A program made the translations under genes and the position numbers. DNA of 34,254 nt from a virus, in IMG/VR virus record IMGVR_UViG_3300021087_000043, positions 1 through 34,254 of that record; one strand, 5' to 3'. The notes under the pieces were generated by a model. That model worked only from the letters and a program-made list of their open reading frames with translations. It did not search any database and was not told the DNA's origin. Positions within the stretch are counted from its first letter, which is position 1. Every line of letters begins with the position of its first letter. Positions 3,057 through 32,504 of the stretch are shown here, piece by piece.

Positions 3057-3065
3057 GATAAATAG
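3057..3065 (+). promoter_or_regulatory. Late promoter box GATAAATAG
   Basis: Matches the T4 late consensus TATAAATA at seven of eight positions and differs from the window's dominant GATAAATAC by the last base. It lies 177 nt upstream of the fibre gene at 3243, leaving an unusually long leader that begins with a perfect hairpin (3070-3097). Confidence 0.7.
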
Positions 3066-3152: not shown

Positions 3153-3200
3153 GGATGGAAACATTCAACCTTAAAGAAGCAACAAGGGATGGAAACATTC
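3153..3200 (+). repeat. Direct repeat GGATGGAAACATTC, two copies
   Basis: Identical 14-mers at 3153-3166 and 3187-3200, spaced 34 nt start to start, in the leader of the fibre gene at 3243. Only two copies, no array. Confidence 0.75.
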
Positions 3201-3242
3201 TGATAATATTTTATAAAATAACACAAGACGGGAGAAAATTAA

Positions 3243-18205: not shown

Positions 18206-18214
18206 GATAAATAC
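18206..18214 (+). promoter_or_regulatory. Late promoter GATAAATAC placed for a leaderless mRNA
   Basis: Exact 9-mer ending 4 nt before ATG 18219. With the T4 late octamer at -13 to -6, +1 falls on the A of the ATG. Confidence 0.7.
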
Positions 18215-27888: not shown

Positions 27889-27890
<2 letters not shown>

Positions 27891-27897
27891 TAAATAC
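27889..27897 (+). promoter_or_regulatory. Late promoter GATAAATAC overlapping gp17 stop
   Basis: Exact 9-mer sharing the GA of the gp17 stop TGA (27888-27890); 25 nt before ATG 27923. Confidence 0.8.
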
Positions 27898-27922: not shown

Positions 27923-29380
27923 ATGGCAATAAATTTAAATGACATATCAACAAAAGTGATGAAACTGATGCAGGGCAGTGGACACGCAATGAAAATGTTC
28001 GATGCTACTAGTGGCAAGAGCGTTGCGACACCTGACGAGGCACGTTTCTTTTACGTTAAAGAACCAAATATGATGGTTCATATCGATGGAAACACTAAGG
28101 AACTAAAGTTTCATATTGGTGAAGATATTGACATAGATAACGAACAAATACATAATATGATGAACCAACTGAAATCTTTAGCAAGAACTAACATGCTAGA
28201 CTTTGATATTCGTTCATTTGGAAAACATATAGAACCTAAGAATTATGCATATAAGGTTAAACAAAATAAGGAGAATACCATGAATGACCAAGTCAATGAA
28301 GGCATGGGCCCGTTGTCTGGGTCGTCACGTACTAGCCGTCAAACATTAGAAAATGTAAAACTAATATTAAAACATAGAGCGCCAGTAAACGAAGAATCTC
28401 GTGGCTCTCGTTCTCGTAATATCTCAGCAATCTTTGTTGAGACAGGTGAAGGCGAACGTTTTAAATATCCATTTATTCACTTAAATGGTGCAAGAGCAAT
28501 GGCAAGACACGTTGCATCTGGTGGCGAAACACATGATATGGTAGGCGAAGCAATCATTGAGATGTCTGATAACTTATCAAGGCTAAAAGAATTTATGAAT
28601 GTTGTAAACAAGCAAGGTCTTGTAAATGAAACTAACCGTGCTGATGTTTGGAATGTGAAACGTAGCGTTATGGCTATCAAAGAAAAGATACAAAGAATTC
28701 AAGGACCAAAAGGTTATGCTAGTTTTGTAGAAGACATGGCTCTTAACGGCACTAAAGCACAAGAAGAAATGTCAGAAGAAATGGTAGATGCATATGTAAA
28801 GAAATTTACAAAGTCTACATTTGAAGAAAATTTAAAAGACATTTTTCCATTACTACATAAAGTAAGTGAAGAAGAAATGGAAAATCGTAGAGATAATCAA
28901 ACTAATAGAGTTATAGAAATTATGACTGCAAAAGTCAAAAAGACTGGCGAAAAAATAAACACAATTACTTTTGGTGCGCCAAGTTCTGACAATTATGACT
29001 ACTCAAAAATCAAAAATCAATTTGCTGAACCACGCAATCCAGAAGAAGCGGCTCAGATTAAGATTAATAAGATTGCGATGACATTTGATGACCTTGCTGA
29101 CAGAGTTCAAGTAGATACGTTGTTAGACAAGAAAGGCAAAAAGAAAGGTCACGATTTAGCGGCAGAGATTTCTTTTTTCTTAACTGATATTGCTAACGAA
29201 ATTCGTTCAAACCCAAGAGGTATGGACAAAAAAGATATGCAAGTAGCAGGTGCTTTAATGAAGATGTCCAAATCAAAAGTAGAAACTGTAGAGCCAAAAT
29301 CAGCAGACGTACAAATATCTGAAATGCTTGAAGAAGCATTCTCAAAATTCGACCCAGACAGAGTGCTTAAAGAAAATTAA
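27923..29380 (+). CDS. Conserved-looking hypothetical protein, 485 aa
   Basis: ATG 27923. The N-terminal region mixes hydrophobic and charged segments with a repeated pattern (ARFFYVKEPNMMVHIDGNTK, then KFHIGEDIDIDNEQIHNMMN). The central region is positively charged with helices (RNISAIFVETGEGERFKYPF, GARAMARHVASGGE, NLSRLKEFMNVVNKQGLVNE), and the C-terminus ends in an acidic amphipathic helix (QISEMLEEAFSKFDPDRVLK). No catalytic motif and no family recognised. The late promoter and position beside gp17 suggest head/packaging or virion function, which is inference. Followed by an early promoter and a terminator. Confidence 0.7.
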   Translation: MAINLNDISTKVMKLMQGSGHAMKMFDATSGKSVATPDEARFFYVKEPNMMVHIDGNTKELKFHIGEDIDIDNEQIHNMMNQLKSLARTNMLDFDIRSFGKHIEPKNYAYKVKQNKENTMNDQVNEGMGPLSGSSRTSRQTLENVKLILKHRAPVNEESRGSRSRNISAIFVETGEGERFKYPFIHLNGARAMARHVASGGETHDMVGEAIIEMSDNLSRLKEFMNVVNKQGLVNETNRADVWNVKRSVMAIKEKIQRIQGPKGYASFVEDMALNGTKAQEEMSEEMVDAYVKKFTKSTFEENLKDIFPLLHKVSEEEMENRRDNQTNRVIEIMTAKVKKTGEKINTITFGAPSSDNYDYSKIKNQFAEPRNPEEAAQIKINKIAMTFDDLADRVQVDTLLDKKGKKKGHDLAAEISFFLTDIANEIRSNPRGMDKKDMQVAGALMKMSKSKVETVEPKSADVQISEMLEEAFSKFDPDRVLKEN

Positions 29381-29388
29381 TTTTCTAC

Positions 29389-29418
29389 TTGACATTCATA
29401 GTCTATCTATGCTATAAT
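29389..29418 (+). promoter_or_regulatory. Sigma70-type promoter P1 upstream of gp32
   Basis: TTGACA (29389-29394), 18-nt spacer, TATAAT (29413-29418). Both hexamers are consensus. The expected start (about 29425) is inside the next terminator stem. The spacer holds a small dyad, CATAG-N5-CTATG (29397-29411). Confidence 0.8.
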
Positions 29419-29420
29419 CA

Positions 29421-29447
29421 AAGAGAGTGTTAAAACTCTCTTTTTTT
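29421..29447 (+). terminator. Rho-independent terminator ahead of gp32
   Basis: AAGAGAGT (29421-29428), loop GTTAAA, ACTCTCTT (29435-29442), with a T-run to 29447. Ends late transcripts arriving from the gene at 27923. Confidence 0.9.
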
Positions 29448-29483
29448 ATGCTTAAAAACCATTCAAAAAGATTGATTTAGTGC

Positions 29484-29512
29484 TTGACTTTAGGAATAAA
29501 GATAAGTATAAT
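29484..29512 (+). promoter_or_regulatory. Sigma70-type promoter P2 for the gp32 operon
   Basis: TTGACT (29484-29489), 17-nt spacer, TATAAT (29507-29512). It leaves about an 87-nt leader to ATG 29606. The leader shows no clear structure; the rest of the 225-nt gap is promoter P1 and the terminator. Confidence 0.85.
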
Positions 29513-29605
29513 AGTATCATTAGTAGAAATATGTATGGTACATAAAAACTAATATAAAACTAATAGTAAGAAAACAACTAATAAAGGCTAATATAGGAGA
29601 AAATA

Positions 29606-30604
29606 ATGGCTACACTAGCAGAAATCCGTGCAAAACTTCTTGCACAAGATAACAAAGCATCAGATAATGCATCCTCAAACAGAGGGTCAGATGCAGTATA
29701 CCCTTTCTGGAATATGGAAAACGACAATACAGCAGTATTGAGATTTCTACCAGATTCAGACCCAACAAACACATTCTTTTGGAAAGAACGTCAAGTTATC
29801 AAACTTCCGTTCCCTGGTGTTAAAGGTGGTGATGAACAGAAACGAGTAATCGTTCAAGTACCTTGCGTTGAAATGTGGGGCGAGTCTTGCCCAATTCACG
29901 CAGAGATACGTCCATGGTTTAAAGACCCAGCAATGGAAGACCTAGGTCGTACATATTGGAAAAAGCGTTCATACGTTTTCCAAGGCTTGGTTGTAACTGA
30001 CCCTATCGGTGGTGAACAACCAGAAAATCCAGTTCGTAGATTTATCATTGGACCACAAATCTTCAAGTTATTGAAGGCGGCTCTAATGGATCCAGATATG
30101 GATAATCTACCAACGGATTATGAACAAGGTACTGATTTCCGTCTAACAAAGACAACTAAAGGTCAGTATGCAGACTATTCAACTTCATCTTGGTCACGCA
30201 AAGAGCGTTCACTAAATGAAGAAGAACGTCAAGCAATCGAAACTCATGGTCTTTATGACTTAAATGAGTTTATGCCAAAGCGTCCAACAGAGGATGACAT
30301 GCGAATTATCACAGAGATGTTTGAAGCATCTGTTGATGGTGAATTGTATGACCCAACTCGTTGGGGTCAGCACTATAAACCTTATGGGTTAGATGTTCCA
30401 GCAGGAACTTCTGCACCTACAACTTCAACTCCAACTGCTCCAAAAGTAGAAGAAGTTAAAGAAGTTGCACCAGCAGAAACAACACCTGTTGCTGAAACAT
30501 CAGCACCAACTCCGACTCCAGCACCAGCAGAAACAACTGCTGAAGCACCGAAGTCAGATGCGGCAGATATCTTAGCAATGATTCGTAGTAGAAAAACTGA
30601 CTAA
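29606..30604 (+). CDS. gp32: Single-stranded DNA-binding protein (T4 gp32-like)
   Basis: 332 residues, ATG 29606 behind ATAGGAGAAAATA. The N-terminal ATLAEIRAKLLAQDNKAS corresponds to the cooperativity domain; the OB-fold core contains YPFWNMENDNTAVLRFLPDS, PFPGVKGG and the Cys/His group C87-x7-C95-x2-H98 (VPCVEMWGESCPIHAE), part of the gp32 zinc site, then RSYVFQGLVVTDP and the PVRRFIIGPQIFKLL strand. The C-terminus is an Ala/Pro/Thr/Glu-rich linker ending in ADILAMIRSRKTD, replacing the short acidic T4 tail that binds partner proteins. It coats single strands in replication, recombination and repair. First gene of the early replication operon. Confidence 0.93.
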   Translation: MATLAEIRAKLLAQDNKASDNASSNRGSDAVYPFWNMENDNTAVLRFLPDSDPTNTFFWKERQVIKLPFPGVKGGDEQKRVIVQVPCVEMWGESCPIHAEIRPWFKDPAMEDLGRTYWKKRSYVFQGLVVTDPIGGEQPENPVRRFIIGPQIFKLLKAALMDPDMDNLPTDYEQGTDFRLTKTTKGQYADYSTSSWSRKERSLNEEERQAIETHGLYDLNEFMPKRPTEDDMRIITEMFEASVDGELYDPTRWGQHYKPYGLDVPAGTSAPTTSTPTAPKVEEVKEVAPAETTPVAETSAPTPTPAPAETTAEAPKSDAADILAMIRSRKTD

Positions 30605-30671: not shown

Positions 30672-31742
30672 ATGGCAAGAGCCTTTGATGCGAGTAAATT
30701 TCGCAAGAATATAACAAAATCTGTTCCTGGTATGAGTGTTGGTTTTAGAGACCCAGACACTTGGGTATCAACAGGTAATTATACATTAAACAAACTTATC
30801 AGTAATGACTTCCATAAGGGTGTCCCACTAGGTAAGGTAACAGTCTTTGCAGGTGAAAGTGGTGCAGGTAAATCTTTTATCGCCGCTGGTAACTTAGTAA
30901 AAAATGCACAAGACCAAGGTATTTTTGTAGTCTTAATCGATAGTGAAAACGCACTAGACGAAAGTTGGCTACATGCACTTAATGTAGATACAACACCAGA
31001 AAAGTTGCTCAAATTAAATGTAGCAATGATTGATGATGTTGCAAAAATCATTTCAGACTTTATGAAAGATTACAAGGCAGAATATGCCGATAAAGACGAT
31101 GAAGAACGTCCTAAAGTATTGTTTGTTATTGACAGTCTTGGAATGATGATGACCCCAACCGATGTTGACCAGTTCAATCGTGGTGACATGAAAGGTGACA
31201 TGGGTCGTAAACCAAAAGCCCTAGCGGCACTAGTAAGAAATAGTGTGAATATGTTTGGTGATTACAATGTAGGACTAGTTGCTACAAACCATACATACGC
31301 ATCACAAGATATGTTTGACCCAGATGATAAAATCTCAGGTGGTCAAGGCTTTATCTACGCTAGTTCTATTGTAGTTGCAATGCGTAAACTTAAACTAAAA
31401 GTAGATGCAGACGGCAACAAAACTTCACAAGTACATGGTATTAGAGCGGCTTGTAAAGTAATGAAAACACGATATTCAAAACCATTTGAAAGTGTACAAG
31501 TTGAGATTCCATATGAAACTGGTATGAGTCCTTATAGTGGTCTTGTTGAGTTCTTCGAAGCAAAAGGTTTACTTATTAAGCAAGGAAATCGATTGAAGTA
31601 CATGACTAAAGCAGGCGAAGAAATGATTGAGTTCCGTAAAAACTGGACTGATGAAAAACTTGATATTGTTATGAATGATTGGAATGCAGAAGACATTATA
31701 GAAGTAGAAACAGAAGATACTGTCGCTTCCGAAGAAGCATAA
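30672..31742 (+). CDS. uvsX: RecA-like recombinase UvsX
   Basis: 356 residues from ATG 30672, behind ATAAGGAGAATTTAT; a longer frame from 30615 would run through the intergenic hairpin and is rejected. Walker A is GESGAGKS (61-68), Walker B is VLFVIDSLGM (about 149-158), LIDSENALD (88-96) carries the catalytic Glu strand, and ISGGQGFIYASS holds the loop region. The C-terminus is acidic (EDIIEVETEDTVASEEA), typical of UvsX. The protein forms filaments on gp32-coated single strands for strand exchange in recombination-dependent replication. Operon with gp32 and uvsY. Confidence 0.94.
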   Translation: MARAFDASKFRKNITKSVPGMSVGFRDPDTWVSTGNYTLNKLISNDFHKGVPLGKVTVFAGESGAGKSFIAAGNLVKNAQDQGIFVVLIDSENALDESWLHALNVDTTPEKLLKLNVAMIDDVAKIISDFMKDYKAEYADKDDEERPKVLFVIDSLGMMMTPTDVDQFNRGDMKGDMGRKPKALAALVRNSVNMFGDYNVGLVATNHTYASQDMFDPDDKISGGQGFIYASSIVVAMRKLKLKVDADGNKTSQVHGIRAACKVMKTRYSKPFESVQVEIPYETGMSPYSGLVEFFEAKGLLIKQGNRLKYMTKAGEEMIEFRKNWTDEKLDIVMNDWNAEDIIEVETEDTVASEEA

Positions 31743-31749
31743 AAAATGA

Positions 31750-31773
31750 GCAATCTGTATAAATAGATTGCTT
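31750..31773 (+). promoter_or_regulatory. TATAAATA late octamer in a hairpin loop
   Basis: AGCAATCT (31750-31757) and AGATTGCT (31766-31773) flank GTATAAAT; the perfect late octamer TATAAATA spans 31759-31766. Could serve late transcription of the 78-aa gene and uvsY, or be an RNA hairpin; no T-run follows. Confidence 0.5.
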
Positions 31774-32040: not shown

Positions 32041-32504
32041 TGAACTGGTATAGCAAAATAGTAAAAGATTGGAGTGAAATTCCAAACTGCATTCAATTCT
32101 TTGATAACGAGTTGACAGATGCAAGAAAAGAAGTAAAGATAAATGGCAATATTGAGAAAAATGCTACTTATCTTCCTGCTTTTGTGGAATTACGTTTTGG
32201 TCAATTACAAGAGATAGAAGCCATACTAGAGCATCTAAACATACAGTTGCGTAAAAAAAGAAGTGAATATTTGCGTAAGTATTTAGAGAACTATAATAAG
32301 GTGTTAAGTAGTAGAGACGCCGAAAAATACGCAGATGGCGAAGATGAAATTGTTGCGATTGGTGAATTAATTAATCAGGTCGCACTTATTAGAAATCAAT
32401 ATCTCGGAATAACAAAGGGGTTTGAAATTAAACACTTTCAACTGTCTAACATAATTAAGTTACGTGTAGCAGGCATGGAAGATTCAGAGATAACAACATA
32501 TTAG
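32040..32504 (+). CDS. uvsY: UvsX mediator protein UvsY
   Basis: 154 residues, ATG 32040 overlapping the preceding stop (TGATG). The T4 UvsY pattern is recognisable: an N-terminal helical part (FFDNELTDARKEVK), a charged central segment (QLRKKRSEYLRKYLENYNKV), and the C-terminal oligomerisation helix QYLGITKGFEIKHFQLSNII, close to T4 AIKSRGFAIKHIQDM. T4 UvsY has 137 residues. It loads UvsX onto gp32-coated DNA. Directly upstream of nrdA, with a 13-nt gap. Confidence 0.85.
   Translation: MNWYSKIVKDWSEIPNCIQFFDNELTDARKEVKINGNIEKNATYLPAFVELRFGQLQEIEAILEHLNIQLRKKRSEYLRKYLENYNKVLSSRDAEKYADGEDEIVAIGELINQVALIRNQYLGITKGFEIKHFQLSNIIKLRVAGMEDSEITTY

Follow-up and report, generated by a model that had tools for sequence, protein, structure and literature searches.

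How can a promoter be productive when its transcripts are expected to begin inside a terminator? This question is raised by a 34,254-nucleotide stretch of marine phage DNA (the window), in which a predicted terminator straddles the predicted start of a promoter, P1. Profile matches identify T4-type phage genes in the window, including those for tail sheath, terminase, a structural protein, gene 32, uvsX, and uvsY, and the predicted P1/terminator site divides the late-type genes upstream from gene 32-uvsX-uvsY downstream. On the late side is a virion structural protein gene (27923 to 29380; phrog_13484, E value 1.9e-33), and on the other side are gene 32, coding for the single-stranded DNA-binding protein (29606 to 30604; phrog_1192, E value 1.8e-66), a uvsX-like recombinase gene (30672 to 31742; phrog_97, E value 1.6e-65), and a uvsY-like gene (32058 to 32504; phrog_231, E value 1.4e-13), all on the plus strand. 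The intergenic region between the structural gene and gene 32 is 225 nt and holds P1, the hairpin with its T-run, and a second promoter, P2. The T4-type late-promoter-like sequence GATAAATA, which we take to be a late-promoter motif by analogy with T4, has 10 copies in the window compared with 2.83 expected, a count that none of 100 shuffles reaches. Eight of these copies precede, by no more than 60 nt, the listed start of a same-strand open reading frame (ORF) of at least 100 amino acids, and the remaining two are at 3057 (186 nt before such an ORF) and at 18206 (just within one). One copy, at 27889 to 27896 on the plus strand, is 34 nt before the structural ORF start at 27923, and late RNA should therefore reach the P1 hairpin. 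With this motif upstream and gene 32, uvsX, and uvsY downstream, the late/early boundary proposed in an earlier, sequence-only reading of this DNA is supported.

The P1 match to TTGACA/TATAAT (29389 to 29418) is complete at 12/12, and it is the sole 12/12 match among the 31 sites listed between 26000 and 34254. Its -35 box TTGACA (29389 to 29394) and -10 box TATAAT (29413 to 29418) are separated by an 18-nt spacer, within the 16 to 18 nt of sigma70-type promoters, and the spacer ends in an extended -10 sequence, TGC (29410 to 29412). The hairpin follows the -10 box, starting one base past it, with a left arm at 29420 to 29428, a GTTAAA loop at 29429 to 29434, and a right arm at 29435 to 29443, all on the same plus strand. 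Its nine pairs (-10.7 kcal/mol), only three of which are G-C, and a run of seven T residues (29441 to 29447, three of them within the right arm) give the stable hairpin and T-run of an intrinsic terminator. The preferred start is 7 bp past the -10 box according to an excerpt of PMC5730371, which places the P1 start at 29425, and a survey quoted in that excerpt gives start use at positions 6, 7, 8, and 9 as 8, 55, 29, and 7%. The expected P1 start (29424 to 29427, modal 29425) is thus held by the left arm. The sequence-only reading had P1 ending at 29418 and starting at 29425 within that arm, with which the 12/12 match and the modal position 7 agree, and its terminator coordinates were right to within one pair, the left arm being 29420 to 29428 rather than 29421 to 29428.

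We consider it probable that this 59-bp unit (29389 to 29447), with a promoter start set within an intrinsic terminator, acts as a one-way transcription boundary. Polymerase arriving from the late-type terminase and structural genes would transcribe the full 9-bp hairpin and the U-run and terminate. Polymerase from P1 would start at about 29425, giving RNA from which the five or six outermost bases of the left arm are missing; since only a 3- to 4-bp remnant could form in this RNA, it would pass the U-run, and gene 32, uvsX, and uvsY would be transcribed. The sequence elements, the geometry and complementarity kept in relatives, and the predicted destabilization of the hairpin are what the analysis shows; P1 activity in the host, its modal start, termination at the hairpin, and escape of the P1 transcript are inferred.

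Predicted energies depend steeply on where the RNA begins. For the 27 related regions with the composite (see below), mean energies for RNAs starting at positions 1, 6, 7, and 8 are -11.3, -3.8, -2.0, and 0.0 kcal/mol, position 1 being the complete hairpin; in the window, a start at 29425 leaves -4.0 kcal/mol and a start at 29426 leaves 0. Window starts at positions 5 and 6 would keep -8.5 and -4.5 kcal/mol, respectively, which favors an alternative in which the P1 RNA is itself attenuated, either by starting at 29423 to 29424 or by polymerase pausing at the short hairpin and U-run, such that the unit regulates P1 and is not an insulator. Also in its favor is a second composite in a relative (G001:66771, equivalent to L291:6771; offset 1), which would keep a stable hairpin past its start, with about -10 kcal/mol left from position 7. 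However, in the survey cited by the excerpt of PMC5730371, 84% of starts fall at positions 7 and 8, which would leave -4.0 or 0 kcal/mol here, and we regard attenuation of P1 as very improbable. We note that the G001:66771 composite and an offset-1 composite at 47802 in RB49 (10/12), in which seven pairs are kept, both depart from the lost-hairpin rule as modeled. The G001:66771 composite sits between Hsp20-like and ClpS-like genes, as named by eye.

The window on its own is suggestive only, since its counts are close to those of shuffled sequences: 31 promoter-like sites versus 30.6 expected and five terminator-like sites versus 4.6 expected, with no excess over shuffles. A loose composite filter finds one composite on the plus strand and two weak ones (9/12) on the minus strand, and 0.2 per strand in shuffles. 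It is the fixed promoter-hairpin geometry among relatives that lifts the observation above chance. The relatives comprise 233 records (from which RB49 was then left out and to which the window was added); 225 have a gene 32 start, and the 212 with at least 230 nt upstream of gene 32 yield 112 distinct regions. A promoter of at least 10/12 with a hairpin at its start, offsets of 0 to 8 being allowed, is present in 27 of these regions and absent from 85, among which regions whose P1 scores below 10/12 would fall. In all 27 composites the stem follows the -10 box at an offset of 0 or 1 nt. They represent 25 distinct motifs with ten different stems of 9 to 10 bp and loops of 4 to 6 nt. All 25 motifs have TTGACA (the search demanded TTGAC), TATAAT or TATACT (the search demanded either), and TGC or TGT before the -10 box, which was not demanded, and other spacer positions vary. 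Because P1 was found by pattern, with near-consensus boxes and a T-run behind them demanded in the motif and energy counts, the conservation of the boxes and the coupling of P1 with a terminator are partly built in. One stem class was sought in viral contigs that largely overlap loci already in the relatives set and was found in 50 places, 47 of them before gene 32; 45 of the 47 have P1 and two are cut too short, and the three elsewhere are without P1. In some relatives the P1 -35 region (29388 to 29406 in the window) is within an inverted repeat, GTTGAC...GTCAAC, which is not intact in the window.

A terminator-like hairpin is more widespread than P1, being present in 73 of the 112 regions (the 27 composites included). 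About half of the P1-less relatives have such a hairpin there, and 38 of the 85 P1-less regions have, in roughly the same position, a terminator that passes a strict filter, with a mean of -13.7 kcal/mol. With an ordinary terminator in many P1-less relatives, it is plausible that the terminator predates P1. In a gene 32 protein tree of 102 of the 112 (duplicates of one state and proteins of fewer than 250 amino acids being dropped), the P1 state, in 24 rows, needs two changes, one for a 21-row clade that includes the window and one for a clade of 3 rows, and a P1-less clade is adjacent to these two. These two changes suggest perhaps only one or two origins. The terminator may therefore be the older element, onto which P1 was later superimposed, or else P1 may have been lost once.

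The retention of the terminator regardless of P1 (the 38 of 85 P1-less regions under the strict filter) also suits a reading in which both elements work and their crowding is incidental, the overlap being unselected beyond the inability of P1 to tolerate a full terminator downstream. The overlap could be the sole spot where a new promoter upstream of a terminator survives. In favor of the one-way boundary, only five promoter matches among the 112 regions have a terminator starting 5 to 60 nt behind the -10 box, all of them 10/12 and none of 11/12 or better. Against crowding, the window and L019 both have an offset of 0 to 1, although their gene 32 proteins have diverged to 73% identity and the spacer (17 or 18 nt), stem, and loop change. 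We judge crowding unlikely, and it differs from the one-way boundary in purpose rather than in mechanism.

The stem itself varies in a manner that bears on whether it acts as RNA or as DNA. In a gap-free set of six distinct stems, 54 of 54 cells are paired and three pairs are changed on both sides; these counts are for equal-length stems, one outer pair having been removed from two of them, with other loop lengths left out. (When 22 of the 25 distinct motifs were trimmed and aligned with MAFFT, the stems were misplaced, and this alignment was excluded from the pair counts.) The covariation score for the six stems exceeds that of 500 of 500 shuffles and of every slid register, whereas 138 of 500 shuffles equal the stems in pairs with changes on both sides and 490 of 500 do so in further pair types. 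When arms are exchanged among the ten stems, full pairing persists in 29 of 90 combinations, and the covariation signal is thus moderate. Dyads at start sites are typical of operators, and many relatives have a dyad at P2 too, without a T-run, such that the P1 dyad could be a DNA operator placed over the start for a phage or host repressor, with the T-run incidental. The ten stems, the loops of 4 to 6 nt, and the compensatory changes with G-U cells nonetheless fit an RNA hairpin better, and we give the operator hardly any credence, since pairing is maintained through changes in stem, loop, and arm length.

A strict search of 3.73 Mb on both strands gives 28 distinct composites, 26 of them of the gene 32 type by sequence and two others, although the loci are mostly gene 32 neighborhoods; a mobile cassette for this P1-terminator family is not supported by these counts, though one may exist. 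In longer records there are two further composites in G001, a weak one in G007, and none in G002 or G003. A megablast search with positions 28800 to 30100 gave no match among 50,697 phage records, a collection from which records very near the window may be missing. The gene 32 protein matches 61 named-phage records, with the top match, in PA5oct-like jumbo phages, reaching 58% over 80% of its length, and inspection by eye of the 200 nt or so preceding the gene in three of these revealed no comparable P1-terminator unit.

Between the hairpin and gene 32 is P2 (29484 to 29512, plus strand), a sigma70-like promoter of the form TTGACT-17-TATAAT (11/12), and a pattern search finds a P2-like promoter in 94 of the 112 regions. 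Within the P2 spacer and -10 box, at 29501 to 29512, is GATAAGTA, one base off the late motif. Of the 112 regions, 49 have GATAAGTA and 26 have GATAAATA no farther than 150 nt from gene 32. P2 may thus be an overlapping early and late promoter, gene 32 may be late-transcribed from it, and the boundary may separate transcripts and not silence gene 32. A second dyad, GTATCAT...ATGGTAC (29514 to 29541), is seen by eye 1 nt past the P2 -10 box, without a T-run. A hairpin of varied sequence is at offset 0 to 1 from P2 in 33 of the 94 regions, although in the window another, smaller hairpin is picked. The gene 32 leader (29550 to 29600) is A/T-rich with repeated CTAATA units, as in distant relatives, and these may be a site for autoregulation by gp32, as in T4. 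Farther downstream, between uvsX and the next gene, the late-type motif TATAAATA is in the loop of a hairpin of at least eight pairs (31749 to 31772); this hairpin has 37 occurrences among the loci examined, many from overlapping contigs.

These observations refine what the sequence-only reading had proposed. Its central logic, that read-through RNA contains the whole hairpin and P1 RNA only part of it, is supported by the offset of 0 to 1 in 27 of 27 composites and further by the compensatory stem changes and the predicted energies. It also had the gene 32 operon insulated by this overlap, but the insulation may predate P1, given the hairpin in about half of the P1-less relatives; the new part may then be the way in which P1 avoids the terminator. 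Shielding specifically from late transcription is less secure, as P2 holds the late-like GATAAGTA and gene 32 may still be late. The suggestion that this comes at no cost in space is not sustained, as nothing shows space to be the reason in an intergenic region of 225 nt. If the unit works as its sequence suggests, a boundary of 59 bp would read the origin of a transcript, stopping RNA from outside and passing RNA from inside, with no protein regulator. This would explain the separation of early and late operons on one strand in densely packed phage genomes, and would provide a compact part for expression constructs.

Among known systems, the promoter-terminator composites of T4-type phages reportedly described by Arbiol (2010) and Comeau (2014) as promoter-early stem-loops (PeSLs) resemble this unit in joining a strong early promoter of the sigma70 type to an intrinsic terminator in one small intergenic T4-type unit, and in this sense the window unit is such a composite. 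PeSLs are found in dispersed copies, which mediate recombination within hyperplastic regions. In the PeSL-like pairs of RB49, however, the terminator is before the promoter, whereas the stem of the window unit starts at a fixed distance past the -10 box. On the RB49 minus strand, 10 of the 20 listed pairs are clearly terminator then promoter, the stem ending 12 to 32 nt before the -35 box. A scan of the whole RB49 genome gives nine loose composites around the -10 box (two on the plus strand and seven on the minus strand, with 0 to 2 per strand in shuffles), several of which keep seven to eight pairs behind the expected start.

Krischvirus RB49 (L081) also has a nested promoter/terminator after gene 39 (about 3155 to 3201, minus strand), in which a 12/12 promoter has its TATAAT as the loop of a 13-bp hairpin of -21 kcal/mol. 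As predicted for the window unit, promoter RNA would be without the left arm and read-through RNA would have all of it, but the -10 box is the hairpin loop in RB49, and in the window the -10 box is outside and the loop is GTTAAA. The RB49 element differs in sequence and place and is presumably an independent solution. It is identical in six records read besides RB49, and the 201 bp around it have matches of at least 90% identity in 58 phage records, some of which are duplicates; in nine, the match is split in two. In GEC-3S (HE978309) the nested element is annotated as both a promoter (3175 to 3202) and a terminator (3164 to 3191), and the overlap is thus already present in annotation. This parallel element makes a direct test possible in E. 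coli. We suggest tentatively, and with some doubt, that promoters nested in intrinsic terminators are a distinct class of one-way insulator reached at least twice by T4-type phages, with the start in the left arm here and the -10 box as the loop in Krischvirus, and maybe by late promoters too, with TATAAATA in a hairpin loop at 31758.

PeSLs are named in excerpts of PMC4503421 and PMC5931544. Among the matches listed in the literature searched (on PeSLs, terminator/promoter overlap, IS10-like protection, and start-site choice), outside which both original PeSL papers fall, none describes transcription starting within the arm of a terminator. Similar logic, at the level of translation, is familiar from Tn10/IS10, where transcripts from outside carry the full inverted repeat and the element's own transcripts start inside and lack it. 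The IS10 hairpin hides a ribosome-binding site, whereas that in the window is a predicted transcription terminator, and we claim no membership of the window unit in the Tn10/IS10 system. In Tn916, according to an excerpt of PMC11658703, a terminator near the end insulates downstream genes from outside transcription, and the unit before gene 32 would resemble it in using a terminator as an insulator of the genes downstream.
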